Shown here piece by piece: positions 235-60,730 of a stretch of 64,000 bases of DNA (position 1 is its first letter; each line of letters begins with the position of its first letter). Source of the stretch: Streptomyces sp. Mut1 (GTDB lineage: Bacteria > Actinomycetota > Actinomycetes > Streptomycetales > Streptomycetaceae); NCBI RefSeq assembly GCF_030719295.1, contig NZ_CP120997.1, positions 3,286,001-3,350,000 of the forward strand, read 5' to 3'. Below the pieces are notes generated by a model. That model had not been told where the DNA came from, made no database searches, and worked only from the letters and a program-made list of their open reading frames with translations. A program made the position numbers and the translations under genes.

Positions 235-373
235 ACATGCCATGGTGTCAGAGCCACGGACGGTCTTTGCGGACAGGTGTTTCACCGCACGCCCGTGGGG
301 GAGGTCACTGACACGATGATCGGGTTGCACGGCGGGGGCTGTGCCTCCCAGTGAGTAGTCGGGTGGATGAGAT

Positions 374-967: not shown

Positions 968-1063
968 CCCTGGGCGCACCCGAGGACGGGCGGGAGCTTC
1001 GGCTCCCCTTCCGGGGCGGTGCCCGCCCCGGAGGAGAGCTGTCCGGGCCGGCGCCCGCCGGCT

Positions 1064-2416
1064 TCACGCCACCCGCCGCCGCGCGAGCGTGATGGTGACC
1101 GCCCCGGCCACACAGGCGACCGCCGCTGTCAGGTAGGCCAGGTGGTAGCCGGTCAGCTGGTCGTCGCTGGTCGCCGCGACCAGGACCATGACCGCGACTC
1201 CGACGCTGGAGCCGATCTGCTGGGCCACGACGTTCACGGCACCGGCGACCGCGTGCCCCTCCGGCTCGACCCCGGTGAGACCGGCGGACGTCATCGAGGG
1301 GAAGTTCAGCCCCTGCCCGATGCCGCTGATCACCAGGCCCGGCAGCACGTGCAGCGCGTAGCTGCCGTGATGCGGTGTGCTCATCCACAGCCCCGTTCCC
1401 ACGCCGATCAGGACGAGTCCGACGGCCATCAGCGCGTGCGGGGTGTACGTGGCCAGCAGGCGCCCGGTGGCGTAGTTGGCGGTGAGAAACACGGCCAACG
1501 ACATCGGCACCAGCGCCAGACCGGATTCGAGCGGGGAGTACTTCAGCATCCCCTGCAGATACAGCGGCGCGAAGAACAGCATCCCGACCGAGCCCATGTA
1601 CTGGAGGAACGCCGCCAGACTCGCCGCCCGCACCGACGGGATACGGAAGAGGCCGAGGGGAAGCACCGGGTCGGCGGTGCGCAGTTCACGTACGACGAAG
1701 AGCACCAGGAAGACCACCGCGGCGCTGAGCGCGCTCCAGACCACCGCGCCGCTGCTGCTCACGCCGACGACCAGCAGGGTCAGACCGAGCGTGCCCGATA
1801 TCGCCCCCGGCAGGTCCAGCCGCCCGCCGCGCGCGACACCGGCGGGCAGTCCCGCGCGCGTCGTGGCCAGCACCGCGACCCCCACCACGACCGAGAACCA
1901 CAGCACCGAGCGCCAGCCGAAGAACTGGGTGAGCACACCGCCCAGCAGCACACCGCCGCTGAAGCTCGCGGCGCCCACCGCCGCGTACACGCTGAACGCC
2001 CGGTTACGGGCCGGGCCGGCCGGAAACACCTCGGTCAGCAGGGCCAGTGCGGCCGGACCGGACAGGGCCGCGCCGATGCCCTGCGCCGCCCGCGCGCCGA
2101 GCAGCACCGCGATGTCCGGTGCCAGGGCGCCGGCCAGCGCGGCCACGGTGAACAGGGCGATCCCGGCCTCGAACACCCGCCGCCGGCCGAACACATCGGC
2201 CAGCCGGCCGCCCACCAGCAGGAAGCCGGCGAACGCGACGGCATACGCGATCATGACCCACTGGAGCGTGGCGTCGTCCAGGCGGAACCGTTCCCCGACG
2301 GACGGCAGGGCCGCGTTGAGCACCCCGAGCCCGCTCACGTCCAGTGCGAGTGCCCCGGCCAGCACTCCGAGTGCCAGGCCCGGCCGTCGGCGTGGCACCA
2401 CCCCCGTACCCGTCAC
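1064..2416 (-). CDS. MFS drug-efflux-type transporter (DHA2-like)
   Basis: The 450-residue product is almost wholly hydrophobic, with 12-14 predicted membrane segments. It carries MFS signature stretches: GGRLADVFGRRRVFEAG in loop 2-3 (motif A) and a motif-C-like GGVLLGGVLTQFFGWR. It should be a proton-driven exporter in the cytoplasmic membrane. The start is fixed by GGGAGG placed five bases before the GTG at 2416; the longer upstream reading (to 2683) is Arg-rich and not credible. It lies 1.2 kb from the PKS-NRPS operon and points away from it. It could export that product, but nothing in the sequence proves the link; it could equally belong to the hemL flank. Confidence 0.88.
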   Translation of the reverse strand: MTGTGVVPRRRPGLALGVLAGALALDVSGLGVLNAALPSVGERFRLDDATLQWVMIAYAVAFAGFLLVGGRLADVFGRRRVFEAGIALFTVAALAGALAPDIAVLLGARAAQGIGAALSGPAALALLTEVFPAGPARNRAFSVYAAVGAASFSGGVLLGGVLTQFFGWRSVLWFSVVVGVAVLATTRAGLPAGVARGGRLDLPGAISGTLGLTLLVVGVSSSGAVVWSALSAAVVFLVLFVVRELRTADPVLPLGLFRIPSVRAASLAAFLQYMGSVGMLFFAPLYLQGMLKYSPLESGLALVPMSLAVFLTANYATGRLLATYTPHALMAVGLVLIGVGTGLWMSTPHHGSYALHVLPGLVISGIGQGLNFPSMTSAGLTGVEPEGHAVAGAVNVVAQQIGSSVGVAVMVLVAATSDDQLTGYHLAYLTAAVACVAGAVTITLARRRVA

Positions 2417-3643
2417 GCGGCCCTCCCGGCGAACGCGCCACCGTCGAAGGACGCGACCGCTGGACGCCGCGGTGAACATCCGGGTAAGGGCGCGTCGGCA
2501 CCGGACGCCCGCGCGGTGGCGAGTCCCGGCTGTCCGGTTCCCCTCACCGGGACGCGGCTGCCGGCCGACACCGCTCTGTGGTCCATGGATTTCATGCCGA
2601 GCATGCTGCAATGCCGCCCACCGCCTGTCCAGGCCGCGCCGGTGAATAGGGCGCCGGAGTCCGGTCCGAACCGCTTCACCCAACCATTCGTCGGCCGAAA
2701 ATTAGCGAATAAATGTGGCGCGGGTTCAAATCCGGTCACCTCCGACACACCCACAACGGACATTTTCACGGGGAAGGGATAGAGCCCGGTTTGTGTTGCC
2801 GACGGCCGAAATGCATCGGCGGCGAGGGCCGGATTCACGTCGGCATTGACCCGTGTTGAGCGTGGATGCCCACCGTTGCCCACGGCGTCCGGACCATCTG
2901 CCGGCGGCGAGGGGAAAGACAGCGAATCCCACGCCTCAGGGTCTAAATCGCGCCACCGTACCTTCCGCACCTCCGGGCACTCTTGTCTCGCCATTCCTCG
3001 AATGGCAGTCTGATTCCCGCCGGTCGGGCAAGTGCCGCCGTCCACGTCAATCCGCATACCCCTTGACCTGGACGGATCGAATCCAGACACATGCCGGCCG
3101 GCAGCGCGGATGAGGTGTTCGGCTCCGCCCGCACGTCGGCAAGGACGGCGCGGTCGCGGATCAGCTCGGCCAGGCGTACCACGGTGGTTGGATCGCCGGG
3201 CAGTGATCCTGAATCAGGTCGCGATCTGATTCAGCCAGGACGGCTTGACGGGGGTTGGGTCTCAGTGCGCGTATTCGTATTTCGGCAACCATGTCCTTCT
3301 GTCTCGGACGGGACGGACCGTCCGGAACGACACGGACCTCATTGCCCCTGAGGGGCCCCTCCTGAGGGTGCCCGGAGGGCTTCCCCACATGTAACCGCAC
3401 ACGGCACCCGCCTACGGCGGAAGCAAATCTTCCGGTACGTTTCCCTGCTCATGACCGGCCATCCGGACACCGGCTGATCATTTCCAGCGCCACCGGCCCG
3501 GCCTCGCTTTCCGGCCTCGACGCTTTTGTGTCACGCCCGCTTCGGTCCCACCGCTATCGCATGGCTGACGGAGTTTCCGCGCCCTTGATCAGCCGGCCGC
3601 AAGCTCCACCCGTACATTTCATTTGTCCTGCCGAGGAGCCGAA
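2417..3643. other. 1.2-kb intergenic region between the MFS gene and the PKS-NRPS operon
   Basis: No convincing gene is present. It is less GC-rich than its surroundings around 2690-2830. It contains a tRNA T-arm-like stretch (2719-2746), the paired CTGAATCAG/CTGATTCAG repeat (3209-3234) and a GAGGGGCCCCTC palindrome near 3350-3361. A minus-strand reading at 2943-3182 (start VRLAELIRDRAVLADVRAE) looks partly protein-like and could be a decayed gene. The promoter of the biosynthetic operon must lie here or near 3400-3620. Confidence 0.6.
3209..3234. promoter_or_regulatory. Inverted repeat upstream of the PKS-NRPS operon (candidate operator)
   Basis: CTGAATCAG (3209-3217) and its exact reverse complement CTGATTCAG (3226-3234) are separated by 8 bases. 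The left arm is itself part of the near-palindrome CCTGAATCAGG. The geometry fits a dimeric regulator. It sits 410 bp before the PKS start; which regulator binds, if any, is unknown. Confidence 0.4.
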
Positions 3644-6600
3644 ATGCCCCACGAGCGCGCAGCAAGAGATGTGCACGCCACATCAGACTTCCTCCTGTCC
3701 CGTATTGCCGATGTGATGGACCTGCCCAGGGACACAGTGGACCGGTGGGCACCGATGCACCAGTACGGCCTGGACTCGCTGAAGCTCTCGACCATTTCGG
3801 CCTCACTGTCCGAATTCCTCGGCCGGAAGGTTCCGCTCACCTGGATGTGGCAGTACCCGACCGTCGACGCGCTGGCCCGTGCGCTCGTGGACGGTCCCCG
3901 GGCGGCGGATCCCGCGCCGGGCAGCGGCGAGCGGCGGGTGGCGGCGCACGAGCCCATCGCGATCGTGGGCATCGGCTGCCGGTTCCCCGGCGGCCCGGAC
4001 CCCACCTCGTTCTGGCAGCTGCTCTCCGAGGGCCGCGACGCCGTCGGACCGGTGCCGGCGGCCCGGCGCGAGCTTCTGGGCGACGCGGTGCGCTGGGGCG
4101 GCTTCATCGACGACATCGACCGCTTCGACCCGCTGTTCTTCGGCATCTCACCCCGCGAAGCCGTCCAGATGGACCCGCAGCAGCGTCTGGTGCTCGAACT
4201 GGCCTGGGAGGCACTGGAGGACGCGGGGGTCGCGCCCCACAGCCTCGTCGGCAGCGACACCGGCGTGTTCATGGCCTCCTGCTGGGGCGACTACGCGGCG
4301 CTGGCGCACTACCGCGGCCCCGACGCCCGGATCACCCCGCACACCGCGACCGGCATGCACGACGGCATCATCGCCAACCGCGTCTCCTACGCCCTCGGAC
4401 TGCAAGGCCCCAGCATGGCCATCGACGCGGCCTGCGCCGGATCGCTGGTCTCCGTGCACGTGGGATGCCAGTCGATCTGGATGGGCGAGAGCGAACTCGT
4501 GCTCGCCGGCGGGGTGAATCTGAGCTTCGTCTCCGACTACTACACCGCCATGGCCCAGATGGGCGCGCTCGCCCCGGACGGCCGCTGCAAGTCGTTCGAC
4601 GCACGGGCCGACGGCTACGTCCGCGGAGAGGGCGCCGGAGTCGTCCTGCTCGCCCCGCTGAGCGTGGCCCTGGAACGCGATCTTCCGGTCTACTGCCTGA
4701 TCAAGGGCAGCTCGTCCAACAACGACGGCCTGAGCAACGGCATGACCGCGCCGAACCCCCAGGCCCAGGAGCTGATGCTCCGCAACGCCTACCGCCGGGC
4801 CGGCATCGCGCCGTCCCTCGTGGACTACATCGAGTGCCACGGCTCCGCGACGCCCCTCGGTGACCCGATCGAGGCCAATGCCATCGGCGCCGTCCTGGGC
4901 GGGGACCGCACGGAGCCGCTGCGGCTCGGCTCCGTCAAGTCCAACGTCGGGCACCTGGAAGCGGCAGCCGGCATCGTCGGCCTGGTCAAACTGGCGCTGT
5001 CGATCCGCAACGGGGTGCTGCCGCCGAGCCTGCACTACGCCGCCCCGAACCCGCAGATCATGTTCGACGCGTACAACCTGACCGTCCAGGACCGGCTGAC
5101 GCCGTGGCCCCGGCGGTCCGACGCGCGCCGGGCGGGCGTCAGTTCGTTCGGCTTCGGCGGGGCGATATGCCATGTCGCCGTCGAGGAGCTGCCCCGGCCC
5201 GAGACCTCGCTCCTCCTGCTGGCCGAGGACTCCGGGCAAGCCCTGGCCGCGCGTGCCCGCGCACTGCGTGACGACAACGACCTGCGGGCGGTCTGCGCCC
5301 GGACGCCCGGTGACGGTGGCTTCCGGCTCGCGGCGGCGGCCCGCGACATGACCGAACTCCGGGCCCAGCTCGACGCCTTCACCGCCGGCACGGCCATGGA
5401 CGGGCTGAGCGTCGGGGAGCCGGCCGGACGCGGGCCGCGCGTGGCGTTCCTGTTCTCGGGCAACGGCTCGCAGTGGTTGGGCATGGGCAGGCAACTGCTC
5501 GCCGGTATGCCCGTGTTCCGGCGGTCCATGACGCGTTCCGACAAGCGGATGCGGAAGCTGCTGGGCTTCTCGCTCGTCGACCAGATGCTGGCCGCCGACG
5601 GCCGCATCGACGACATGGACGTCTTCCAGCCGCTGCTGTTCTGCATCCAGGTCGCGCTGGCCGACGCCTGGCGGTCGCTGGGGGTCGAGCCGGACGTCGT
5701 CGTGGGCCAGAGCGTCGGTGAGTTCGCGGCCTCGCACATCGCCGGCGCACTCGACTTCGAGGACGCCTCCCGCCTGGCCGCGGGCCACGGCAGGCTCCTC
5801 CAGCAGCTGGCCGTCGGGCGGGGCGAGGGCATCGTCGTGACGACCGACGCCGACGCGGTCAGGAAGTACCTGACCGGCCGGCTCGCGGTCGCCGGCCGCA
5901 ACGGCCCGAACTCCACCCTGGTCACCGGCACACCGCAGGAGATCGACACACTGGTCGGGCAGCTCACCGAAGAGGGCATCACGAGCCACCGGGTACGGAT
6001 GGGCCACGCACCGCACTCGTCGCTGGTCGACCACGTCCTCGACCCGCTGAGGGTCGAACTCGACGGCATCCGGCCCCGGACGACCCGCGTCCCGATGGTC
6101 TCGACCGTGACGGGTGAACTGGTCGACGGGGCGGAGCTCGGGCCGGACTACTGGGCGGACAACCTGCGCGGGGAGATCCGCGTCGTGGATGCCCTGACGG
6201 CTCTGCGCGACCACGACATCGACGCGGTGATCGAGCTCAGCCCGCATCCCGTACTCCTCAAGTCCGTGGCGGAGATCCTGCCCGCGGCCACGCTGCCCTC
6301 GCTCCGGCGGGGCGCCGACGAGGCCCGGACACTGCTCGGCTCGCTCGGCGCGCTGCACGCCGCCGGCCACCCCGTCACGCCCGGCCCGTTCACCGCGGGG
6401 GACCGGGGGCGGCACGTCACACCCGGCCGGGGCGACACCGCGCCCGACGACCGGGTGCGTCTTGTCCCGGTCACGGCGCGCACGGCGGACGCGCTGGCCG
6501 ACACCTGCCGTGAGCTGTCCAGCCACGTCGAACGCGACACGGGCCTGCGGGTCTGCGACCTCGCCTACACGCTCGCGGCCAGGCGCACCCACCACAGCCA

Positions 6601-9600
6601 CCGGATCGCGCTGTTCGCCCGTAACCGTCAGGACGTCCTGGACGGGCTCGCCCGGGTCGCTTCCGGTCAGCCGCACCCCGATGTCGTCACGGGCACCGTC
6701 GCCGGCAACACCGACCGGCGGGTGGCGCTGGTGTTCTCCGGCGGCGGCACGCAGTGGGTCGGCATGGGCCGGGAGCTCCTGCGCTCGCACGCCGGATTCC
6801 GCGCCTCGATGCAAGCCTGCGACGCCGCCGTGCGAGCGGCGGGCGGCTGCTCGGTGCTCGACGAACTCGCCGCCCCGCCCGACCGGGCCAGGTTCGAGGA
6901 AATGGACTTCCAGCAGCCGGTCCTGTTCGCCCTCCAGGTCTCCCTGGCGCAGGTCTGGCTCGGACTCGGCGTCGAACCGACCGCCGTCGTCGGACACAGC
7001 CTGGGTGAGGTGGCGGCCGCCTGTGTCGCGGGATCACTGTCGCTGGAGGACGCCGCCCGCGTGGTGGTCGCCCGGTCGCACCTGCTGGAACGGAAGGCCG
7101 CCGCGGGTGCCATGATCTCGGTCGACCTGCCGGAGCGGGATCTGCTGCCGAGGATCGCCCCGTACGCCGAGCACGCGGCGATCGCCGTGGTGAACAGCCC
7201 CACGAGCGCGGCGGTGTCCGGCACGCCCGACGCCATCGGCGCCCTGGAGGCCGACCTCGCCCGGGACGGCGTCCCGACCAGGCGGATCCGGGTCGAACGG
7301 CCCGTGCACAGCCCCGGCATGGACCCCCTGATCGAGCCGCTGCGCGAGAGCATCGCCGGCATCACCCCGCTGGCGAACACCATCGAGTTCCGATCCACGG
7401 CACTGGCCGGCACGGTGAACCCGGTCGCCGACGTCGACTACTGGGTGCACAACCTGCGCAACCAGGTCCGGTTCGCCGAGACGATCGGCGCGCTCGTCGA
7501 CGAAGGCATCGGGACGCTGATCGAGATCGGCCCGCACGAGACGCTGCGCGGCGCGGTCGAGGAGATCGCGCTGACGCGCGGTGCCGAGGTGCACGCGATC
7601 AGCTCGCTGCGGCGCGACGAGAGCGACGTCCGCTGCCTGCTGGAGGCCGCCGCTTCGCTGTACGTCAGGGGGCTCCCACTGACCTACGACTCGCTGTTCG
7701 ACGACGACGTCGAGGTCGTGGAGACGCCGCTCGTCCAGTGGCAGAAGGAGCGCTACTGGCTGGACACCGCACCCGAGCCCGGCACCGCGCCGGTCCGGGC
7801 TGCCGCCGCGGGCGCGACCGCGCAGGCACCGGACCACGAGCCGGTGGCGGCGCCCGTGGCCGCACCCGTGGAGAGCAGGCCGCTGGAGGACGTCGTCCTC
7901 GGCGAGATCGCCGACGCGCTCGGCGTACCGGCCGCCCGATTCCACGAAGGCGCCGCCCTCAGGGACTTCGGCCTGGACTCGATGCTGGCGATACGCCTCA
8001 TCAACAGGCTCCAGGCACTCTTCGGGCAGCGGGTGTCGCCGGTGGTGTTCCTGGACGGCCGCTCCATATCCGAGGTGGTCGACCACATCGTCACGACGAT
8101 CGGCCGCCCGCCCGCGGCCCCGGCCGCCGGGCCCGGTACGGCCGAGCCGGAGCGGCCGGCCGCCCGGCCGGAACCGGCCCGGACCGCGCGGCTGCCCGGC
8201 GAGGCGGTGCCCGTACCGGCTCGAAGGCCCCGGGACAGGCCGGCCGGCACCTTCCTCGACGATCTGCCCGAGCTCGACGCCGAGGAGCTGCTGGAGGAGC
8301 TGGCAGCGCGCGGGCTCCTGGACCCGACCGACGCGCCGGCGGCCGAGCAGCTCCGCGCCGACAGTCTCGGTCTCGAACTGGCACCCGCGTCACACGGCCA
8401 GACGTCCCTGTGGTTCATGCAGCAGGTCGACCCAGACGCCGTCCCCTACAACTTCATGGTGACCGCCCGGATCCGGGCCGCGGTGGACGAGGAGGCGCTC
8501 CAGGACGCCGTACGGGCCGTGGTGGAGCGCCACCCCGCCCTGCGCACCCTCTTCGTCGAGGCCGGCGGCAGCCCGGTCCAGGTCATCCTGGACGAACCGG
8601 TCTACGAGTTCACCGTCGTGGACAGCACGGACCTGGACGACGAACAGGCCCGCGAGGAGCTTGCGGAATACGGCCACCTGCCGCTCGACCTGGACAACGG
8701 GCCACTGGTGCGGGTGGTGCTGATGAACCGCGGCCCGGCGGATCACTACCTGCTGGTCCTGGTCCACCACATCGCGTCGGACGCCGCGTCGGCCGACGTC
8801 ATGATCCGTGAACTCCAGGAGTTCTACGGCGGCGTCGACCCGGCTCGGAGCGCTCCCGTGGCCCCCTACACCGAGTTCGTGGCGGCGGAACGGGAGTGGC
8901 TGGCCGGACCGGCGGCCGGGGCAGCGCTGGAGTGGTGGTCGCGGAAGCTGGCCGATCCGCCCCCGCACCTGGATCTGTCCGCCAAGGAGCGCCCGCCCGG
9001 TGTCACCTACGAGGGCCGCGACCTCACCTTCCGCTGGAGTGCCGAGGAGTCCATGCTGCTCCGGGAGTTCGCGGTACGCGAGGGCGTGTCGGTCAGCACC
9101 GTCGTACTGGCCGGATTCTTCGCCACGCTCAACCGGGCGGCGCTGGTCGAGGACTCCGTACTGGCCACCGCCATCGCCCAACGCGGCGAACCCGGCTGGG
9201 AGTCGGCCGTCGGCTACTACCTGAACACGGTGCTGGTACGCGCCGAACCGTCCGGCGAGCGCAGCTTCCGCGACCTGCTGAGCGAGGTCCACACCTTCTC
9301 GCTCGGCCTGCTGGAACACATGGACTACCCCCTCGACCTGCTGGCGTCCCACCTCAAGCCGGCCAGGGCCGAGGGCCGGTCGCCGTGGTTCGACGTGGTG
9401 GTGAACTGGCTGTCCTCGGACGCCTTCCCCCGCTCCGTGAAGCTCTTCCACGGCGTCGGCTCCACCATCGCGCCCGGCAGCGCCCTGCCGCTCGAACCGC
9501 TGCCGGTGCGCCGGCACCTCGCCAAATTCGACCTGGAGATCTCGATGGCCGACATCGACGGCGAGGTGGCCGGCCACATCCAGTACAAACCGAGCTACCT

Positions 9601-9727
9601 GGAGAGGCAGACCGTGACGGCACTGCTCGCGCTCTTCCGCACCGTACTCTTCGACTCGATCGCCCAACCCGGCCTGCCGCTGCGGGAGATCGCGCCGAGC
9701 GGACGCCCCGAGGGGGCGGACAAGTGA
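3644..9727 (+). CDS. Hybrid PKS-NRPS megasynthase, ACP-KS-AT-AT-ACP-C (SalA-like)
   Basis: A 2027-residue cytosolic assembly-line protein. Domains by position: ACP1 (Ser45 in YGLDSLKL), KS (about 103-520; Cys264 in DAACAGS, His399 in ECHGSAT, His437 in NVGHLEA), AT1 (about 600-880; Ser690 in GQSVGE), AT2 (about 1027-1320; Ser1119 in GHSLGE), ACP2 (Ser1446 in FGLDSM) and a condensation domain (about 1580-2000; H1708-H-x3-D1713 in HHIASDA). There is no KR, DH, ER or TE, so the beta-keto group survives. The likely role is loading a starter on ACP1, one extension by KS onto ACP2, then amide formation by C with the aminoacyl-PCP of the next gene. AT1 has His715 where the carboxylate-binding Arg is expected, 25 residues after Ser690; AT2 keeps Arg1144. 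The start at 3644 has GAGGAG five bases upstream. Domain order recalls SalA of salinosporamide biosynthesis. Confidence 0.93.
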   Translation: MPHERAARDVHATSDFLLSRIADVMDLPRDTVDRWAPMHQYGLDSLKLSTISASLSEFLGRKVPLTWMWQYPTVDALARALVDGPRAADPAPGSGERRVAAHEPIAIVGIGCRFPGGPDPTSFWQLLSEGRDAVGPVPAARRELLGDAVRWGGFIDDIDRFDPLFFGISPREAVQMDPQQRLVLELAWEALEDAGVAPHSLVGSDTGVFMASCWGDYAALAHYRGPDARITPHTATGMHDGIIANRVSYALGLQGPSMAIDAACAGSLVSVHVGCQSIWMGESELVLAGGVNLSFVSDYYTAMAQMGALAPDGRCKSFDARADGYVRGEGAGVVLLAPLSVALERDLPVYCLIKGSSSNNDGLSNGMTAPNPQAQELMLRNAYRRAGIAPSLVDYIECHGSATPLGDPIEANAIGAVLGGDRTEPLRLGSVKSNVGHLEAAAGIVGLVKLALSIRNGVLPPSLHYAAPNPQIMFDAYNLTVQDRLTPWPRRSDARRAGVSSFGFGGAICHVAVEELPRPETSLLLLAEDSGQALAARARALRDDNDLRAVCARTPGDGGFRLAAAARDMTELRAQLDAFTAGTAMDGLSVGEPAGRGPRVAFLFSGNGSQWLGMGRQLLAGMPVFRRSMTRSDKRMRKLLGFSLVDQMLAADGRIDDMDVFQPLLFCIQVALADAWRSLGVEPDVVVGQSVGEFAASHIAGALDFEDASRLAAGHGRLLQQLAVGRGEGIVVTTDADAVRKYLTGRLAVAGRNGPNSTLVTGTPQEIDTLVGQLTEEGITSHRVRMGHAPHSSLVDHVLDPLRVELDGIRPRTTRVPMVSTVTGELVDGAELGPDYWADNLRGEIRVVDALTALRDHDIDAVIELSPHPVLLKSVAEILPAATLPSLRRGADEARTLLGSLGALHAAGHPVTPGPFTAGDRGRHVTPGRGDTAPDDRVRLVPVTARTADALADTCRELSSHVERDTGLRVCDLAYTLAARRTHHSHRIALFARNRQDVLDGLARVASGQPHPDVVTGTVAGNTDRRVALVFSGGGTQWVGMGRELLRSHAGFRASMQACDAAVRAAGGCSVLDELAAPPDRARFEEMDFQQPVLFALQVSLAQVWLGLGVEPTAVVGHSLGEVAAACVAGSLSLEDAARVVVARSHLLERKAAAGAMISVDLPERDLLPRIAPYAEHAAIAVVNSPTSAAVSGTPDAIGALEADLARDGVPTRRIRVERPVHSPGMDPLIEPLRESIAGITPLANTIEFRSTALAGTVNPVADVDYWVHNLRNQVRFAETIGALVDEGIGTLIEIGPHETLRGAVEEIALTRGAEVHAISSLRRDESDVRCLLEAAASLYVRGLPLTYDSLFDDDVEVVETPLVQWQKERYWLDTAPEPGTAPVRAAAAGATAQAPDHEPVAAPVAAPVESRPLEDVVLGEIADALGVPAARFHEGAALRDFGLDSMLAIRLINRLQALFGQRVSPVVFLDGRSISEVVDHIVTTIGRPPAAPAAGPGTAEPERPAARPEPARTARLPGEAVPVPARRPRDRPAGTFLDDLPELDAEELLEELAARGLLDPTDAPAAEQLRADSLGLELAPASHGQTSLWFMQQVDPDAVPYNFMVTARIRAAVDEEALQDAVRAVVERHPALRTLFVEAGGSPVQVILDEPVYEFTVVDSTDLDDEQAREELAEYGHLPLDLDNGPLVRVVLMNRGPADHYLLVLVHHIASDAASADVMIRELQEFYGGVDPARSAPVAPYTEFVAAEREWLAGPAAGAALEWWSRKLADPPPHLDLSAKERPPGVTYEGRDLTFRWSAEESMLLREFAVREGVSVSTVVLAGFFATLNRAALVEDSVLATAIAQRGEPGWESAVGYYLNTVLVRAEPSGERSFRDLLSEVHTFSLGLLEHMDYPLDLLASHLKPARAEGRSPWFDVVVNWLSSDAFPRSVKLFHGVGSTIAPGSALPLEPLPVRRHLAKFDLEISMADIDGEVAGHIQYKPSYLERQTVTALLALFRTVLFDSIAQPGLPLREIAPSGRPEGADK

Positions 9728-11544
9728 CCGCCACCCTGCACTCCGAATTCATCGGGCAAGCGGTCAAGGACCCCCTGGCGCCCGCGGTCTACTCCGAGGC
9801 CGGCGTCCTGAGCTACGGCGAACTGGAGGCGCGCTCCCGGTTGCTGGCCGAACGGCTCGTCGCGGACGGTGCCGGTCCCGGTGTCCCGGTGGGCATCTGC
9901 GTCGAGCGGACACCCGACCTGCTGGTCGCCGTCCTGGCCGCTCTGCGCGCCGGCTCCTGCTACCTGCCGCTGGACCCCGCGTATCCGGCCGAGCGGCTGT
10001 CCTTCATGGTCCGCGACAGCGGGACCCGCCTGCTGCTGACCACCCCCGCCTCCCGGGCCAACTGCCCGGCCGGCCCGACCGTGGTCCTGCTGGACGGGAC
10101 CGTGACGACCGAGCCCGGTGAGAAGCCCGTGCCGGTCGTGCCCGGCGACACCGCGTACATCATCTACACCTCGGGTTCCACCGGCCGGCCCAAGGGCGTG
10201 GCCATCCACCACAGCGGCTGCGTCGCCATGCTGTCCGCGATGGACCGGATCTTCGACGGCTGCGACCTCAGCGGCGTCTCGGCGGCGAGCTCGGTCTGCT
10301 TCGACATGTCCGTGATGGAGATCTTCGGCGCGCTGTGCCGCGGCGGCGCCGTCGTCCTGGTGGAGAGCGCCGTCCACCTGCCGGAGAGCCGGTACGCCGA
10401 CAGGATCACCCACCTCAACGTCGTCCCCTCGGTGATGAACGGACTGCTCGACGCCTCCTGTCTGCCACCGAACGTGCGGACCGTCGTGTTCGGCGGCGAA
10501 CCCCTGCGGCGCAAGCTGGTGGACCGGGCCTACCGGGAGACCGGCGCCGAGCGAGTCTTCAACGCCTACGGCCCCACCGAGGGGACCGTCTTCTGCTCGT
10601 TCAAGCTCGTGGCGCGGGACGGGACCGGTGAGCCCTCCATCGGCACACCGTCGGCGGGCGTCCGCGCCTATGTGCTCGACGAGAACCTGCGGAAGCTGCC
10701 GGCCGGCGCGTCCGGCGAGCTCTGCATCGGCGGTGCCGGCCTCGCCCACGGCTACGTCAACCGGCCCCGCACCACGGCCGAACGGTTCGTGCCGGACCCG
10801 TTCATGGACGGCGAGCGCATGTACCGCACCGGTGACGTCGTCTCGTTCACCGACGACGGCGAGCTCCGCTTCGGCGGCCGCTCCGACCACCAGGTCAAAC
10901 TGCGCGGCTACCGCATCGAGCTGGAGGAGGTAGAGGCCCGGCTGACCGGGTGCCCCGGCGTCCGGGAGGCCGCCGCGACCGTGACGGGCCGCAGGCTCGT
11001 CGGTTACGTCGTGCCCGAGGGCGGCGCACGGAGCGGCGTCCGGCTGGACGGCGCTCTCCAGGCCGCCATCACCGGGAAGCTCGCCACCGAGCTGCCCGAC
11101 TACATGGTGCCCGCGACGATCGTGTTCCTGGACGCGCTGCCGCTGGCCCCGGGCGGAAAGCTCGACCGTGCCGCGCTCCCCGAGCCCCCCGCCGCCGACA
11201 CCGGCCGCCCCCTGAGGGCCGCGGGCACACCGACCGAGGTGGCGCTGTCCGAGATCTGGGGTCAGCTCCTGGACCTCGAACCGGCGAGCATCGACGTCCG
11301 GTCCGCCTTCTACGACCTCGGCGGCGACTCGCTGCTGCTCATCCGGCTGGCCCGGCTGATGACCCGGCGGTTCGGCCGCCGCGTCCGGGTGCCCGACCTG
11401 TTCAGCTTCCGCGACATCTCCTCCCTCGGCCGCTGGCTCGACGACGAGAGCGGGGCCACCCCCGAGGTGGTCACGTCGGCCCGCCGCCGGGCCGGCGCCC
11501 GCCGCGCCGCCCTGCGCGGCCGCGGCGGCTCCACCGGCAGCTGA
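9724..11544 (+). CDS. NRPS adenylation-thiolation protein, A-PCP (SalB-like)
   Basis: A 606-residue protein that activates one amino acid as its adenylate and loads it on its own PCP. Core motifs are visible: YIIYTSGSTGRPKG (A3), FDMSVMEIFGALCRGG (A4), NAYGPTEGT (A5), YRTGD (A7), RGYRIELEEVE (A8), PGGKLDRAAL with Lys479 (A10), then LGGDSLLL with Ser536 in the PCP. By manual alignment to the GrsA pocket I read the specificity code as D-M-M-N-V-G-A-V-F-K, which matches no standard code I know. The GTG start overlaps the previous stop (GTGA), so the two are translationally coupled. The preceding protein ends in a C domain, which fits transfer of the polyketide onto this aminoacyl-PCP. No TE or C domain follows. 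Confidence 0.93.
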   Translation: MTATLHSEFIGQAVKDPLAPAVYSEAGVLSYGELEARSRLLAERLVADGAGPGVPVGICVERTPDLLVAVLAALRAGSCYLPLDPAYPAERLSFMVRDSGTRLLLTTPASRANCPAGPTVVLLDGTVTTEPGEKPVPVVPGDTAYIIYTSGSTGRPKGVAIHHSGCVAMLSAMDRIFDGCDLSGVSAASSVCFDMSVMEIFGALCRGGAVVLVESAVHLPESRYADRITHLNVVPSVMNGLLDASCLPPNVRTVVFGGEPLRRKLVDRAYRETGAERVFNAYGPTEGTVFCSFKLVARDGTGEPSIGTPSAGVRAYVLDENLRKLPAGASGELCIGGAGLAHGYVNRPRTTAERFVPDPFMDGERMYRTGDVVSFTDDGELRFGGRSDHQVKLRGYRIELEEVEARLTGCPGVREAAATVTGRRLVGYVVPEGGARSGVRLDGALQAAITGKLATELPDYMVPATIVFLDALPLAPGGKLDRAALPEPPAADTGRPLRAAGTPTEVALSEIWGQLLDLEPASIDVRSAFYDLGGDSLLLIRLARLMTRRFGRRVRVPDLFSFRDISSLGRWLDDESGATPEVVTSARRRAGARRAALRGRGGSTGS

Positions 11545-11579
11545 GCAACCCCACTCACGACCCGAAGAGGAGCCTCCCC

Positions 11580-13364
11580 ATGACCGAGAGCCCCGAGCAG
11601 GAGTACGACCCGGGCGATGTGGCCGTCATAGGCATGTCGTGCCGGGCGCCCGGCGCCGCCACCAAGGAGCAGTTCTGGGACAACCTGGTGCACGGCAGGG
11701 AGACCGTGTCGTTCCTTTCCAAGGACGAGATCCTGGTCGACGAGACGCTGATCCACAGCCCGTTCTACGTGCGGGCCTGCGGTCTGCTCGACGGCTACGA
11801 CCGGTTCGATCCCTCGGTGTTCGGCATCAGCGACCGGATGGCGAACGCGATGACCCCGGAGAACCGGCTGTTCCTGGAGAGCGCGTGGGAGTCGCTGGAG
11901 GACGGTGGCTACGACCCGGACCGGGTCGAGGCCGAGGTCGGGATCTACGGCGCCAACAACCCGCAGACCGCCGCGCTCTACAGCTCCCCGCCCGACCGGG
12001 TGTCGGTCGGCCCCGAGGCGATCGAGGCGAGCCTGGCCTGGTCGCCGGACACCATGACGTCCAACGCCCTGTACTACATGGGCCTGACCGGCGAGGCCGT
12101 CACCCTCGCCGCCGTCTGCGCCGGCTTCCACTACTCGGTGCACCTGGCCTGCCAGTCGCTGCTGCTCGGCCAGACCGACATGGCGATCGCCGGTGGCGCC
12201 ATGGTCCGTCTGCCGCACCCCCGCGGGCACCTGTGGGAGGAGAACCGCGTCCTGTCCAGGGACGGCCACTGCCGCCCGTTCGACGCCAACGGCACCGGTA
12301 CCGCGCTGTCCAGCGGCGTCGTCACGCTGCTGCTCAAGCCGGTGTCGCAGGCCGTCGCCGACCGCGACCACATCTACGCCGTGGTCAAGGGTTCGGCCGT
12401 CAACAACAACGGTGTCAGCGCGATGGCTTACGGCCTGGCGCAGCCCGAGCGGCTGAGCGCGTGCATCGCCAGTGCCATGGAGGTCGGCGGTGTCACACCC
12501 GACACCGTGTCCATGTACGAGGCCAACGGTCTCGGTCTGCCGGTCACCGACGAGCTGGAGGTCCACGCGGCGACCATGGCGTTCGGCAAGCAGACCGGCA
12601 CCAGCTCGATCGGCGGGGTCAAGGGCAACGTCGGTCACGGCGGTGTGGTGTCGGGCGGCTTCGGCACGATGAAGGCCGTGATGTCGCTCTACCACAGGAA
12701 GCTGGCACGGACGGTCAACCTGACGGACGTCAACGAGGACCTCGACTTCCCCAGCACCCCGTTCCTGCCGCAGCTCGAATCGGCCGACTGGGCGCCGGAG
12801 TCCGGCATCCGCCGTGCGGGCATCACCTCGATCGGCGGCGGTGGCTACAACGCGCACCTGGTGCTGGAGGAGCCGCCGCCCGCCGCCGGCCGGGCTCCCG
12901 AGGCCACCGGCCGGCCCCGGCTGGCCACCCTGTCCGCCATGGACGACGAGGCGCTGGCCGACCAGCGGGCGAGGCTGAGGGAATGGCTCGTCGAGAACCC
13001 CGGACTGCGTCTCGACGACATCGTCTTCAGCCTCACCATGGGCCGCAGGGTGATGGACCGCCGGTGGGCGGCCGTGGTCCGCAGCAGGGAGGAGCTGGTC
13101 GAGGCGCTGTCCGGCGGCGCGTTCGCCGGCCGGGCCGTCACCACCGCCGACGCGCCGCGGGTGAACGCGGTCTCCTTCCGCCACACCGACGACGGGATCG
13201 TGCTGTCCGACGGGGACACCCGGGCGCTCCCCGATCTGGCCGCCGCGTGGGTGAGCGGCCGGCGGGTGGACTTCGCCTCCCTGCACGCCGGGGAGACCAG
13301 TCACCGTGTTCCGCTGCCGACCTACCCGTTCCGGCCGCGCCGGTTCTGGCGTACGGACTGGTGA
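11580..13364 (+). CDS. Free-standing ketosynthase, SalC-like, with altered active site
   Basis: A 594-residue thiolase-fold KS with no ACP or AT. VIGMSCRAPGA opens the domain; the nucleophile Cys180 lies in AAVCAGFHYS; the usual EAHGTGT region reads EANGLGLPVTD, placing Asn316 at the first catalytic His; the second His is kept (His353 in NVGHGG). The C-terminal 150 residues form the usual KS-AT-linker-like tail ending PLPTYPFRPRRFW. Loss of one His argues against normal decarboxylative elongation. SalC of salinosporamide biosynthesis, known to form the gamma-lactam-beta-lactone by intramolecular aldol and lactonisation, is also a free-standing KS directly after SalA-SalB, so I infer the same release role. 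GAGGAG sits before the ATG; the gene lies 35 bp after the A-PCP gene. Confidence 0.88.
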   Translation: MTESPEQEYDPGDVAVIGMSCRAPGAATKEQFWDNLVHGRETVSFLSKDEILVDETLIHSPFYVRACGLLDGYDRFDPSVFGISDRMANAMTPENRLFLESAWESLEDGGYDPDRVEAEVGIYGANNPQTAALYSSPPDRVSVGPEAIEASLAWSPDTMTSNALYYMGLTGEAVTLAAVCAGFHYSVHLACQSLLLGQTDMAIAGGAMVRLPHPRGHLWEENRVLSRDGHCRPFDANGTGTALSSGVVTLLLKPVSQAVADRDHIYAVVKGSAVNNNGVSAMAYGLAQPERLSACIASAMEVGGVTPDTVSMYEANGLGLPVTDELEVHAATMAFGKQTGTSSIGGVKGNVGHGGVVSGGFGTMKAVMSLYHRKLARTVNLTDVNEDLDFPSTPFLPQLESADWAPESGIRRAGITSIGGGGYNAHLVLEEPPPAAGRAPEATGRPRLATLSAMDDEALADQRARLREWLVENPGLRLDDIVFSLTMGRRVMDRRWAAVVRSREELVEALSGGAFAGRAVTTADAPRVNAVSFRHTDDGIVLSDGDTRALPDLAAAWVSGRRVDFASLHAGETSHRVPLPTYPFRPRRFWRTDW

Positions 13365-13366
13365 CC

Positions 13367-14602
13367 ATGAGCACACCGGCACCGGACACCGTGGACCTCG
13401 GCGACCCGGACACCTTCGCGGACCACGACCTGGACGAGTTCTGGCGCACCGTGCGGGACACCGCTCCGGTGTACTGGAACCCCCCGGCCGACGGCCGCGG
13501 CGGATTCTGGGTGCTCTCCCGCCACGACGACATCATGGCCACCTACCGGGACGACGTGAACTTCACGTCGGAGCGCGGCAACGTGCTCGTCACGCTGCTG
13601 GGCGGCGGTGACGCGGGGGCCGGCCGGATGCTGGCCGTGACCGACGGGCACCGGCACCACGAACTGCGCAAGATCCTCCAGCGGGTGCTCTCGCCCAGGG
13701 TGCTCGACGAGGTCGCGCGGGCCGTGCGGGCCGGCACCCGGCAGCTGATCCGCGAGGCCGCCGGGGCCGGCGGCCTCGACTTCGCCGGACAGATCGCCGG
13801 CCGGATTCCGATGACCACGATCTCGAACCTCCTCGGTGTGCCCGAGGAGGACCGGGACTACCTGCTGGCCCGGACGAAGGCCGCGCTGTCCACGGACGAC
13901 GAGGACATCGACGAGGTCGACTCCGAGATGGCCCGCAACGAGCTCCTGATGTACTTCATGGACATCGTCGAGGAGCGGCGCGAGTCACCGGGCGACGACG
14001 TGATCAGCATGCTGATCGCCAGTTCCATCGACGGGGTGCCGCTGTCGGACGAGGACGTCGTCCTCAACTGCTACAGCCTGATCATCGGCGGCGACGAGAC
14101 CAGCCGGCTCACCATGATCGACTGTGTCCGTACGCTCGCCTCCCACCCCGAGCAGTGGCGGCGGCTCAAGCACGGCGAGGTCGCGATCGACACCGCGGTG
14201 GACGAGGTGCTGCGCTGGGCGTCGCCCACGATGCACTTCGGGCGCAGCGTCGTCCGGCCGGCCGAACTGCACGGCGTACGGCTGCGGCCCGGCGAGATCG
14301 TCACGCTCTGGCACGCCTCGGGCAACCGGGACGAGCGGATCTTCGACCGGCCGGGGGAATTCGACCTCGGCCGCACCCCCAACAAGCACATCGCCTTCGG
14401 CTACGGCCCGCACTTCTGCGTCGGCTCGTTCCTCGCGAAGGTGGAGATCTCCGAACTGCTCATGGCCCTGCGGGACTTCACCACCGGTTTCGAGCAGACC
14501 GGACAGGCGCGGCCTATCCGGTCCAACTTCCTGACCGGGTTCTCCACGCTGCCCGTGCGGTTCCACCCCGATCACTCCGGACTGAAAGAGGCCGACCGAT
14601 GA
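13367..14602 (+). CDS. Cytochrome P450, probably hydroxylating carrier-bound amino acid (SalD-like)
   Basis: A 411-residue soluble bacterial P450. The I-helix oxygen-binding motif is GGDETSR, the ExxR motif is EVLR, and the heme-ligand loop is FGYGPHFCVG with Cys351. It begins two bases after the KS stop, so it is cotranscribed and probably coupled. P450s in this position of PKS-NRPS operons commonly hydroxylate the side chain of the PCP-tethered amino acid, and SalD does this for the salinosporamide precursor. I therefore infer beta-hydroxylation of the amino acid loaded by the A-PCP protein. The substrate is not shown by the sequence. Confidence 0.9.
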   Translation: MSTPAPDTVDLGDPDTFADHDLDEFWRTVRDTAPVYWNPPADGRGGFWVLSRHDDIMATYRDDVNFTSERGNVLVTLLGGGDAGAGRMLAVTDGHRHHELRKILQRVLSPRVLDEVARAVRAGTRQLIREAAGAGGLDFAGQIAGRIPMTTISNLLGVPEEDRDYLLARTKAALSTDDEDIDEVDSEMARNELLMYFMDIVEERRESPGDDVISMLIASSIDGVPLSDEDVVLNCYSLIIGGDETSRLTMIDCVRTLASHPEQWRRLKHGEVAIDTAVDEVLRWASPTMHFGRSVVRPAELHGVRLRPGEIVTLWHASGNRDERIFDRPGEFDLGRTPNKHIAFGYGPHFCVGSFLAKVEISELLMALRDFTTGFEQTGQARPIRSNFLTGFSTLPVRFHPDHSGLKEADR

Positions 14603-14649
14603 GTGGTAATCCCTTCGCCGGCGAGGGCGACCGGCTGGAGCACGAGTGA
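14599..14649 (+). CDS. 16-residue ORF resembling a truncated MbtH-like protein
   Basis: The reading is MSGNPFAGEGDRLEHE, then TGA. Its ATG overlaps the P450 stop (ATGA) and its stop overlaps the GTG of the next gene (GTGA), with an AGAGG motif seven to eight bases upstream, so it is probably translated. The first residues match the typical MbtH start (MS-x-NPF-x-x-E-G/D); the rest of MbtH (the VLVN and SLWP motifs) is absent in all frames downstream. I read it as a vestige of an MbtH gene now serving, at most, to couple translation. The match is short, so chance is possible. Confidence 0.5.
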   Translation: MSGNPFAGEGDRLEHE

Positions 14650-15341
14650 ACATCTACATCTCAGGACGAGGAGCATTCGCGGTGCAGGTCGCGGAGGCCC
14701 TGCTGGACGAAGGGCACAAGATCTCCGGCGTGGCCGCACCCCGGCTGCGCCAGGGGCAGTCGGACGAGAGCAACGCGTCGTCCTGGGACCGCCTGCGCAC
14801 CTGGGCCTACCCCCGGAGCATCGCGTGGACGGACTCGGCCGAACTGCGCGCGGCGCACGTCCCGGACGGGGTGGATGTGATCGTCGCCGCGCATTCGCAC
14901 GCCTTCCTCGGCCGCCGCACACGTGCCAGGGCCTCCGTCGCCACGATCGGCTACCACCCCAGCCTGCTGCCGTTGCACCGCGGCCGGGACGCGATCCGCT
15001 GGACGATCCGCGACGGTGACAGGGTGACGGGCGGCAGCGTGTACCACCTCACCGAACGCACCGACGGCGGGCCGCTCGCCGCCCAGGAGCACCTGTTCGT
15101 GCCCCCGGGTTCGACCGCGCAGAGCCTGTGGCGCGAGCATCTGGCGCCGCTCGGTGTGCGGTTGCTGCTGCGCGTGGTCGCGGATCTCGCCGGGGGCAGG
15201 CGCGTCGAGGTCCCGCAGGACGAGCGGTTCGCGACCTGGGAGCCCGCGATGGGCGCGCCGCCGCTGTTCAAGCCGGAGCTCATCGCGTTGCCCGGTACGA
15301 CGTCCGTCGAGGGCAGCAGGTGGGCCATTCACTCGCGCTGA
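14646..15341 (+). CDS. Formyltransferase-fold protein (methionyl-tRNA formyltransferase/ArnA-N family)
   Basis: 231 residues with the formyl_trans_N architecture. The catalytic region reads GYHPSLLPLHRG, with His104, and TERTDGGPLA, with Asp140; the 36-residue spacing equals that of His and Asp in ArnA and Fmt. The third catalytic residue, normally Asn two before His, is Gly102. A short extension follows the fold. The family transfers formyl from 10-formyltetrahydrofolate to amines; loss of Asn suggests an altered donor, altered substrate or weak activity. The GTG start overlaps the 16-residue ORF (GTGA), making it the last gene of the operon. Possible roles: N-formylation, or supply of a one-carbon starter to ACP1. 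Both are guesses. Confidence 0.78.
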   Translation: MNIYISGRGAFAVQVAEALLDEGHKISGVAAPRLRQGQSDESNASSWDRLRTWAYPRSIAWTDSAELRAAHVPDGVDVIVAAHSHAFLGRRTRARASVATIGYHPSLLPLHRGRDAIRWTIRDGDRVTGGSVYHLTERTDGGPLAAQEHLFVPPGSTAQSLWREHLAPLGVRLLLRVVADLAGGRRVEVPQDERFATWEPAMGAPPLFKPELIALPGTTSVEGSRWAIHSR

Positions 15342-15454
15342 AGGCGAGTGTGCGCCGGAAGGCCGCATCCGGCCATTCATTGGCCGGAGAGTGATCTTTA
15401 GGGCAGCGGGCAGACCTGCCGATGCAGGAGGCACCGACCCTGAAGGAGGCTGCC

Positions 15455-15730
15455 ATGGGCGACGTTCTGCCGGCCCTGTCCATCCCCGCGCTGGTCCTCG
15501 CCAGTGGTATGTACGCGGTGGCCGCGACCTGGTGGCGCCGCAGGCACCCGGCGCCGCCGTCGCCGTACACGCATCAGGCCGCCCGCCTCGCGGAGCGGGC
15601 GATGCTGGTGGACGCCGAGCGGATCGTGGACGAGGCGTACGGGACGCTCGGCGGCCTCTACGACGGGCAGCCCGCCCCGGCGCACCGGGCCGCCGCGCGG
15701 TCCTCGCACCAGGTGGGTGCCGCGTCCTAA
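15455..15730 (+). CDS. Small hypothetical protein with one membrane segment
   Basis: 91 residues. It opens MGDVLPALSIPALVLASG, a single hydrophobic segment followed by WWRRRH, which suggests an N-out or signal-anchor topology, then a hydrophilic helix (AARLAERAMLVDAERIVDEA). AAGGAGG lies six bases before the ATG, a near-ideal ribosome binding site. It lies 113 bp after the biosynthetic operon and could be the first gene outside it. I do not recognise the family. Confidence 0.65.
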   Translation: MGDVLPALSIPALVLASGMYAVAATWWRRRHPAPPSPYTHQAARLAERAMLVDAERIVDEAYGTLGGLYDGQPAPAHRAAARSSHQVGAAS

Positions 15731-15741
15731 AATCGGCCGTC

Positions 15742-16563
15742 ATGGCCGGTCAACGAGGTCCCCGGCGCGACACCCGCGGCATCGTCGACGCCCCCGAGCT
15801 GTTCGCGCACGTACAGTTCCGGCGCCGCGAGCCCGCCCCCGCGCTGCGGCCCTACCTGGAGCACTACTGGCTGATCGACTGGGACCTCCCCCAGCCGTAC
15901 GCTTCCCACCTCGTCCCGCACCCCAGCGTCAACCTCGTCTTCGAGCGGTACCCGGGCTGCGGCGACGAGGAGGCGGGGTACGCGGAGGTCTCGGGCATCG
16001 GCCTGGAGCTGTTCACGCAGAAACTGGAGGCGCGCGGGCGGGTCTGCGGGGTGCAGTTCCGGCCGGGCGGCTTCCGGCCCTTCGCGCCCGGGGCGCCCGT
16101 GTCGCGGTGGACCGGGCGGCGGCTCCCGGTGGCCGAGGTGTTCGCGCCGCCCGCCCCGGCCTCGGCCGTGCTGGACCCGGCGGACGAGGACGAGCGGGTC
16201 GCCGCGCTCGACGCGTACCTGCTGGCGCTCGGCCCCGGGCCCGACCCCCGGGCCGAGCGGGCGATGGCCCTGGTCGACCTGGTGCGCACCGACCGCACGG
16301 TGCTGCGGGTGGACGCGCTCGCCCGCGCCGAGGGGGTGTCGGTCCGCTCCCTGCAACGGCTGTTCGCCGCGTACGTGGGGGTGGGCCCCAAGTGGGTCAT
16401 CCTGCGCTACCGCATCCACGAGGCGCTGGAGCGCGCCGGATCGGACCCGGCCGTGGACTGGGCGGGCCTCGCCGCCGACCTCGGCTACAGCGACCAGGCG
16501 CACCTGGTCAGGGACTTCACGGCGACGATCGGCGTACCGCCCACGGCACTGACCGCCCCCTGA
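15742..16563 (+). CDS. AraC-family transcriptional regulator
   Basis: 273 residues. The C-terminal third has the double helix-turn-helix of the AraC/XylS family (VRTDRTVLRVDALARAEG, SVRSLQRLFAAYVGVGPKW, then DLGYSDQAHLVRDFTATIG). The N-terminal domain (ALRPYLEHYWLIDWDLP) is of the DUF6597 type often found with this HTH in actinobacteria. It starts 11 bp after the small membrane ORF. It may regulate that gene or the nearby operon; no binding site can be assigned. Confidence 0.9.
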   Translation: MAGQRGPRRDTRGIVDAPELFAHVQFRRREPAPALRPYLEHYWLIDWDLPQPYASHLVPHPSVNLVFERYPGCGDEEAGYAEVSGIGLELFTQKLEARGRVCGVQFRPGGFRPFAPGAPVSRWTGRRLPVAEVFAPPAPASAVLDPADEDERVAALDAYLLALGPGPDPRAERAMALVDLVRTDRTVLRVDALARAEGVSVRSLQRLFAAYVGVGPKWVILRYRIHEALERAGSDPAVDWAGLAADLGYSDQAHLVRDFTATIGVPPTALTAP

Positions 16564-16620
16564 CCCGCCGGCCAAGGGCCGACTGTCAGTGGCCCGCCCT
16601 ACAGTGCCGGTGTGACTACT

Positions 16621-16640
16621 CCCCCGCATGAATGCGGGGG
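16621..16640. repeat. Subterminal hairpin at the tnpB-side end of the IS605 element
   Basis: A perfect 9-bp stem with a two-base loop. In this family such imperfect or perfect palindromes are bound by TnpA as single-stranded hairpins. The same minus-strand region downstream of tnpB is where the omega RNA of TnpB elements is encoded, so this hairpin is probably part of its scaffold, with the guide copied from flanking DNA just beyond 16612. Confidence 0.7.
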
Positions 16641-16647
16641 CTTCTCG

Positions 16648-17862: not shown

Positions 17863-17912
17863 CCAGCCCACCTCCTTCCAGGTCGACGCGATCACCTTAC
17901 TAGACTTGGTGT

Positions 17913-18344
17913 ATGTCACCGCGCTGGGAACCAGATGCCGATATCCGCAGGGGGCGTCATGTCACCTTCCATCTACATGCTCACTTGGTGTTTGTCACCA
18001 AGTACCGGAAGGGGATCTTCGATGACGCCATGCTTCAGCGGTGCGAAGAGATCATGCGGGAGGTGTGCGACAAGTTCGAGGTGGAGCTGCGGGAGTTCAA
18101 CGGCGAGGCCGACCACGTGCATCTCCTGGTGCACTACCCGTCCAAGCTCGCCCTCTCCAGGCTGGTCAACAGCCTCAAGGGGGTCAGCTCCCGGTACCTG
18201 CGCGCCGAGTACACCGGCCGCGTCAACCGGACCGGTATGGGATCGGTCTTCTGGTCACGCTCATACTTCGCAGCATCCTGTGGCGGAGCGCCGCTGTCGA
18301 TCGTCCGTCAGTACATCGAGGGACAGCGTCGCCCCTTGTCCTGA
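17913..18344 (+). CDS. tnpA: TnpA, IS200-type Y1 single-strand transposase
   Basis: 143 residues, typical of Y1 HUH transposases. The HUH motif is HVHLLVHYP and the nucleophilic Tyr lies in IVRQYIEGQ; LVFVTKYRKGIF and SSRYLRAEY are family-typical. It cuts and rejoins single-stranded element ends at the subterminal hairpins. It is divergent from tnpB, so a shared promoter region lies within 17863-17912. No frameshift was seen, so the element may be mobile. Confidence 0.93.
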   Translation: MSPRWEPDADIRRGRHVTFHLHAHLVFVTKYRKGIFDDAMLQRCEEIMREVCDKFEVELREFNGEADHVHLLVHYPSKLALSRLVNSLKGVSSRYLRAEYTGRVNRTGMGSVFWSRSYFAASCGGAPLSIVRQYIEGQRRPLS

Positions 18345-18385
18345 CGTCACCGAACAACGGTGCTCCGCACCGTTCCGTTTTCCCG

Positions 18386-18403
18386 CCCCGGCTGAAGCCG
18401 GGG
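18386..18403. repeat. Subterminal hairpin at the tnpA-side end of the IS605 element
   Basis: A perfect 8-bp stem CCCCGGCT/AGCCGGGG with loop GA, similar in form but not identical to the other end. A second small stem, ACGGTGC/GCACCGT, precedes it just after the tnpA stop. Confidence 0.7.
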
Positions 18404-18422
18404 ATACCCAACGGAGGACCTG

Positions 18423-60459: not shown

Positions 60460-60490
60460 GGCACGACCTTAAACGTTCAGAACGCAGAAA

Positions 60491-60517
60491 AGCCCCGTGC
60501 CACAAGGGCACGGGGCT
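60491..60517 (-). terminator. Terminator of the rRNA operon
   Basis: AGCCCCGTGCC (60491-60501) pairs with GGCACGGGGCT (60507-60517); on the minus strand the stem is followed by TTTTC. Confidence 0.92.
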
Positions 60518-60530
60518 CTTCCTAAAAGGA

Positions 60531-60722: not shown

Positions 60723-60730
60723 ACTGAGGA

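Follow-up and report, generated by a model that had tools for sequence, protein, structure and literature searches.

The DNA window analysed here (64,000 nucleotides of the 8.0 Mb genome of Streptomyces sp. Mut1, contig NZ_CP120997.1, C1:3286001-3350000) carries a biosynthetic operon that is very probably a lactacystin-type (lct) gamma-lactam-beta-lactone cluster having lost its own MbtH gene. The assignment draws on a free-standing ketosynthase (KS) that groups with SalC, the corresponding protein of the salinosporamide cluster (sal), on a formyltransferase (FT) gene that ends the operon, and on motifs in the loading protein that vary together with the presence of FT among related clusters. 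A preliminary description of the window had proposed a coupled operon on one strand, from an ACP-KS-AT-AT-ACP-C protein to a formyltransferase, and all six elements are indeed found there:

3644..9727, + strand: protein A (SalA/LctA type), ACP1-KS-AT1-AT2-ACP2-C, with Pfam matches to PP-binding (twice), ketoacyl-synt N and C, Acyl_transf_1 (twice) and Condensation.
9724..11544, + strand: protein B (SalB/LctB type), A-PCP, with Pfam matches to AMP-binding and PP-binding.
11580..13364, + strand: protein C, SalC-type free-standing KS cyclase, with Pfam ketoacyl-synt and a RhiE/CurL-like post-KS linker.
13367..14602, + strand: protein D, cytochrome P450 (SalD/LctD type; PF00067, E 3.2e-20).
14599..14649, + strand: 16-codon open reading frame (ORF), MSGNPFAGEGDRLEHE, a remnant of MbtH at the SalE/LctE position, with N-terminus and place as in the intact MbtH genes of relatives.
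14646..15341, + strand: protein F, formyltransferase (LctF type) of 231 aa, with Pfam PF00551 Formyl_trans_N.

Genes A and B overlap at 9724-9727, D and the 16-codon ORF share an ATGA at 14599-14602, and the stop codon of the ORF overlaps the GTG of F; a scan of 2400-3700 for promoters and terminators returned none of either. Genes A to D and F are open, with their catalytic motifs present. Protein A has GLDS twice, AACAGS and HGSATP in its KS, GQSVGE..HAPHS in AT1, GHSLGE..RPVHSP in AT2 and HHIASDA in its C domain, and gave no Pfam match to KR, DH, ER or TE. The A domain of protein B has the code DMMNVGAVFK, taken from motif anchors (the position numbering, here and in the codes below, is provisional), and protein D, with GGDETS and FGYGPHFCVG, is a probable beta-hydroxylase acting on a carrier-bound amino acid. 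By Pfam, the window thus holds the complete set of ACP-KS-AT-AT-ACP-C, separate A-PCP and P450, which we take to be a mark of the SalC-dependent class.

The scaffold class put forward in the preliminary description, a SalC-dependent gamma-lactam-beta-lactone, appears well supported, given that SalC, and not the modular KSs, is the neighbour of the free KS. In the tree that had been suggested as a check, protein C falls in a clade with SalC (100/100), apart from the KSs of modular polyketide synthases (PKSs). Its best match among solved structures is SalC itself (7s2x, 936 bits, residues 1-594), to which it is 68.0% identical over 593 positions and 73.5% over the first 430 residues, compared with 32-34% for modular PKS KSs of the same genome and the KS of protein A. 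The tree has 17 rows (a usable KS could be extracted by pattern from only 4 of the 8 own-module loci and from 1 of the 5 further A proteins) and long branches join its two groups; the SalC grouping rests on the 73% identity, not on that join. Like SalC, protein C has a Cys-Asn-His catalytic set in place of Cys-His-His. The Asn, in an EAN motif at the first catalytic His position, is present in all 43 free KSs compared, and the second His is kept in 42, the exception being L042. No listed NCBIfam match of protein C reached its curated cut-off, and neither did any match of F. Other SalC-like KSs (P0224-P0238, one named Candidatus Kentrum) are mostly 45-59% identical, P0227 being a 363-aa piece at 79%; they are possible SalC-type cyclases outside the actinobacteria.

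A SalC-type KS was found in 18 of 392 sampled Streptomyces genomes, the window's own included (even sample; E up to 1e-180); 16 of the 18 have FT, that is, gene F (FT+), and 2 are without it (FT-). Among the other 17 genomes, 7 were duplicates by identical KS and 10 were taken in longer form. A contig scan yielded 38 loci, and 34 of these are close (70-91%), belonging to Streptomyces, Kitasatospora and Streptantibioticus. The comparison comprised 43 rows after the identical S. alfalfae copies L019 and L020 had also been dropped; together with L018 these are contigs of S. alfalfae XY25 with identical-KS clusters, reflecting either redundancy in the assembly or a recent duplication. Of the 43 loci, 38 have FT, window included, and it was not found in L035, L036, L038, L082 and L083; as the query was the window's own KS, this sample leans towards FT+.

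The motifs of proteins A and B vary with FT. The KS motif AACAGS occurs in all 35 FT+ rows with data (the contigs of L009, L027 and L033 end ahead of the KS and AT1 motifs of protein A) and in none of the 5 FT- rows, which have TACSSS or TACSAS; HAPHS of AT1 is likewise found in each of the 35 and in no FT- row, all 5 of the latter having Y-type motifs. HGSATP is present in 33 of the 35 (not in L023 and L042), and HGTGTP in all 5 FT- rows. In the A domain, all 37 FT+ rows apart from L042 have NAYGPTE, and L042 and the 5 FT- rows have NGYGPTE. That the presence of FT tracks altered KS and loading-AT motifs fits the view of FT as a mark of the lactacystin/omuralide branch. The A-domain codes of FT+ rows vary, with DMMN, DMMH, DLMN and DLMS beginnings, while DLM(N/S)VGGVFK is the code of the FT- rows and L042. 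The FT+ variation would allow for an lct-type scaffold with a different amino acid or extender, which would be a new congener and not lactacystin; we consider this unlikely for the window, whose code is the commonest one (21 of 38 FT+ rows, window included). In the protein A genes of L026, L077, L080 and L035 the alignment breaks or stops early despite flanking DNA, which may reflect sequencing frameshifts or real decay.

The FT- clusters, including one on a WZ-12 plasmid (L112), resemble the window in their A-B-C-D-MbtH core (A 57-62%, C 66-70% identical to those of the window); they differ in keeping MbtH after the P450 (in all 5, and in L112) and in lacking F. An alpha/beta hydrolase gene comes next after MbtH in L035, L036 and L083, and L036 has a zinc-type dehydrogenase that might be a crotonyl-CoA reductase. 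Proteasome beta subunit genes lie beside three of these clusters:

L035, 510-1370, - strand: proteasome beta subunit.
L036, 5-478: proteasome beta subunit, cut by the end of the locus.
L038, 286-1131: proteasome beta subunit.

No such gene was seen in the available DNA of L082, L083 and L112, and none in that of the 38 FT+ loci. The L035 subunit has Phe45 and Val49, with which L036 and L038 agree by aligned letters; we take these to be salinosporamide-resistance changes, and an extra beta subunit at the cluster to be a sal feature. The subunits look like resistant target copies, and the FT- clusters themselves look sal/cin-like (cin, cinnabaramide). The window's genome has two proteasome-family matches, adjacent to one another and far from the window, with Ile45 and Ala49 in the beta subunit, and no second beta subunit was found in it. 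The sal cluster of Salinispora shares with the window the SalC-type cyclase with its catalytic set, and SalA-SalB-SalC-SalD-SalE presumably match A-B-C-D-stub in their roles; the window differs in having FT, in the loss of MbtH and in the lack of a second beta subunit. Both marks of the sal/cin type, no FT and an MbtH gene present, are thus wanting in the window.

It is very improbable, in our view, that the operon is nonetheless a salinosporamide/cinnabaramide-type cluster, using an acetyl starter, cyclohexenylalanine and a larger extender, with F a tailoring N- or O-formyltransferase. The common A-B-C-D(-E) core and the 68% identity to SalC would be expected of such a cluster; its protein A, however, has a mean identity of only 61.4% to those of the 5 FT- clusters and KS and AT1 motifs unlike all 5, the Asn needed for amine transfer is absent from F, there is no second beta subunit, and the Pfam hits of window 1-32 kb, a search that did not extend to the DNA upstream of the window, include no recognised precursor genes. 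The preliminary description had called the operon distinct from sal and cin as well; this stands insofar as FT is present and MbtH lost, but FT does not make the operon a new type, as 38 of the 43 loci compared have FT and FT fits the lactacystin branch.

A lactacystin cluster, lctA-F, has reportedly been described from the lactacystin-producing Streptomyces in about 2025, with a PKS/nonribosomal peptide synthetase (NRPS) hybrid, an NRPS, a KS-like cyclase, a P450, MbtH and a formyltransferase in this order; LctF reportedly makes formyl-CoA, according to a 2025 paper. A literature search found no paper on lct or SalC biosynthesis. FT as the last gene of the operon (14646-15341 in the window) is an lct-type mark, and the window differs from lct in that its MbtH is only a 16-codon stub.

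The best PDB sequence matches of F are the hydrolase domains of 10-formyl-tetrahydrofolate dehydrogenase (FDH; 1s3i, E 1.6e-19), and FDH entries take ranks 1-4 in a fold search with its AlphaFold model (mean predicted local distance difference test score 74.9; below 50 at residues 107-112, which adjoin the active site, and 191-231). His104, Asp140 and Gly102 of F align with FDH His106, Asp142 and Ile104 and do not vary across 38 aligned sequences (the window's and 37 picked from the best 120 of 3342 homologues). His106 and Asp142 are described as catalytic in FDH, where Ile104 stands in place of an Asn crucial to amine-formylating enzymes (PMC4388273); the N-terminal domain of FDH (ALDH1L1) passes formyl to the phosphopantetheine of its carrier (PMC8748788), and for HypX formyl-CoA synthesis is proposed, without demonstration (PMC6802093). 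The kinship with FDH and the replacement of the amine-transfer Asn by Gly102 fit formyl transfer to a thiol, and we suggest that it is probably the maker of a formyl thioester starter. The ALDH1L1 hydrolase domain is the best match of F in sequence and fold, with the His and Asp conserved, but F differs from it in standing alone, as 231 aa with neither a carrier nor an ALDH domain, and in having Gly at the position of Ile104.

Several points weigh against assignment to the lct type. The likeness to lct is one of reported gene order, not of measured sequence identity; the MbtH gene expected between P450 and FT is missing in the window; and leucine is a probable, not an established, reading of the code of protein B. 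The split into FT+ and FT- is a single clade split, so that the co-variation of motifs counts as one event apart from L042. In the fold search, the amine-formylating ArnA and Fmt come close after FDH. The family of F is also wider than lct clusters, with 3342 homologues at E up to 0.001; at L113 (genome G547), positions 9469-10296, the neighbours of an FT 73% identical to F are a luciferase-like monooxygenase and a PapA-like protein, probably an acyltransferase, and protein A has no match within 19.9 kb; the family thus seems to serve other pathways too.

Lactacystin-type rings are without the C-3 methyl, which salinosporamide draws from its acetyl starter. Lactacystin has an isopropylcarbinol, a leucine-like side chain, and salinosporamide the C-3 methyl, according to a section of PMC2866466. 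For the window we propose substrates, chemical steps, export and product on the strength of the gene content, homology, motifs, co-variation and MbtH loss seen directly. The motif split and the kinship of F with FDH agree with a putative set of formyl starter, methylmalonyl extender and leucine. F would move formyl from 10-formyl-tetrahydrofolate to a phosphopantetheine thiol, of coenzyme A or ACP1, and AT1/ACP1 would load this starter, while AT2/ACP2 bring in methylmalonyl; the KS of protein A would condense both to methylmalonate semialdehyde on ACP2, no KR being present. Protein B would activate an aliphatic amino acid, probably leucine, with or without the aid of an MbtH encoded elsewhere in the genome, D would hydroxylate its beta carbon, and the C domain of protein A would couple the two halves. 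Protein C would then accept the chain and, through an intramolecular aldol reaction at the aldehyde, form the gamma-lactam, followed by the beta-lactone, releasing omuralide, which a thiol could open to lactacystin; an MFS protein would export the product.

The lost MbtH of the preliminary description is borne out, with only the 16-codon remnant left between P450 and FT. The ORF corresponds to the N-terminal end of an MbtH gene, a stub and not a chance reading frame, as 17 of the 38 FT+ loci have an MbtH of 62-78 aa with a similar N-terminus in the same place, between D and F. No sound MbtH is left at this place in 20 others, and L042 has an intact FT--type copy adjoining its P450. The 20 comprise 3 decayed copies (L016, L022, L077), 4 stubs of 15-21 codons (window, L009, L010, L076) and 13 clusters that have lost the gene altogether, 8 of them with overlapping D and F. 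Aligned by eye with L012, the deleted stretch in the window joins at a common GCGAC. All 4 stubs end at a stop overlapping the start of F, which hints, from few events, at kept translational coupling. The fewest changes explaining the MbtH states, decayed copies scored as lost, number 8, on a quick tree of 42 rows with some weak forks (L042 left out, L082 present but unscored). Lost or decayed in 20 of 38, MbtH looks accessory to the lct type rather than defining; as the window is without the gene, we call its operon lct-type and not the lct cluster.

MbtH has 7 matches elsewhere in the window's genome, all far from the window, and 3-13 in each of the 23 genomes searched that carry such a cluster (the cluster MbtH is sound in 4, where it may be among those counted, and not in the other 19). 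A move of the gene within the window was considered, and tblastn with three MbtH queries gave no convincing match. We also looked for a change in the A domain that would make up for a missing MbtH, setting 17 intact against 17 lost rows (the FT- rows, L042 and 3 degenerate rows excluded); the best single column differs by 0.65, a value reached by 9 of 300 label shuffles, kinship uncorrected, and we do not claim such a change.

The loss of MbtH could have disabled protein B and left a decaying, silent operon that yields nothing. In favour of this are the cut to 16 codons, the 20 of 38 FT+ clusters without a sound copy at the usual place, the absence of the cassette from a same-species genome (G155) and the broken protein A alignments of L026, L077 and L080, some relatives perhaps being in decay. 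We nevertheless find it improbable: the other window genes are open with catalytic motifs; entire clades share the loss, among them L026/L027/L033/L037, where B, C, D and F have retained their motifs; and the genome has its 7 other MbtH matches, MbtH-like proteins being often, though not in every case, interchangeable (PMC7593251).

A natural recombinant bears on the lct-type assignment. L042 (Streptomyces sp. SID12501, 158-12717) has the gene order B-D-E-A-C-F. Its A and C are FT+-like (means of 79.7 and 80.1% to FT+ vs 61.5 and 67.2% to FT-), C being placed with the FT+ side in the KS tree as well, while B and D are closer to FT- (69.4 and 80.2%, vs 62.2 and 72.0% to FT+) and group with L083 in their trees at 99/97 and 99/96. 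As L042 carries F, FT goes with the starter-loading protein A and not with the amino-acid half. Asn replaces the second catalytic His in its protein C and its protein A has HGTGTP, so that it may work differently; the product of L042 may be a formyl-primed hybrid, unless the cluster is inactive. A joint reading, which we offer only tentatively and think rather unlikely, is that lct-type clusters combine two exchangeable halves, one for starter and cyclase (A, C, F), the other for the amino acid (B, D, MbtH), the A domain of the formyl branch having been freed from the cluster MbtH, hence the many losses, and the stub of the window being kept only for translational coupling of P450 and formyltransferase.

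The operon is flanked by a transporter gene and lies in a cassette with a counterpart empty site:

about 1064..2440, - strand: MFS transporter (MFS_1, E 5.9e-38), divergent from the operon, start codon uncertain.
976..15360, no strand assigned: cassette missing from G155, where window 1-975 and 15361-16614 stand 120 bp apart.

The MFS protein is the probable exporter. At DNA level it is matched next to the cluster in 25 of the 34 named loci (3 of the 25 being copies from one S. alfalfae assembly), ending near 2386-2504, upstream in 24 and inverted 3' in L024; the 9 loci without one are 3 too-short contigs (L009, L027, L033), 3 FT- clusters and L022, L028 and L042. G155 has no SalC-type KS, and the MFS gene is also missing from its empty site; the cassette may have been gained in the window strain or lost in G155. 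AC1-42W (L010) has the cassette with the same downstream neighbours, its upstream match to the window starting only near 900. No tRNA was found in the window, and no direct repeats were obvious by eye at the joins of the cassette. One lct-type cluster is located on a 2.8 Mb record named plasmid.

Beyond the cassette, window 16615-18422 holds an IS200/IS605-type TnpB element (OrfB_IS605, Cas12f1-like TNB), which the same spot in G155 is without. Window 60001-64000 has a G+C content of 57.7%, compared with about 70-73% in the other 4-kb blocks, and few long ORFs past 60.5 kb; it is possibly foreign DNA.

The chemistry thus appears to be known, and what is new is the MbtH stub here and the broken or missing MbtH in many related clusters. 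The window adds a complete chromosomal, probably lactacystin-type cluster, intact except for MbtH, and such clusters are not rare, judging by the 18 of 392 Streptomyces genomes, 16 with FT. AACAGS in the KS, HAPHS in AT1 and FT are marks that may separate formyl-primed from acetyl-primed clusters. If the halves are exchangeable, L042 would produce a so far unreported hybrid, formyl-primed and with an amino-acid half resembling that of salinosporamide. The natural series of MbtH decay makes it testable when an A domain stops needing its own MbtH.

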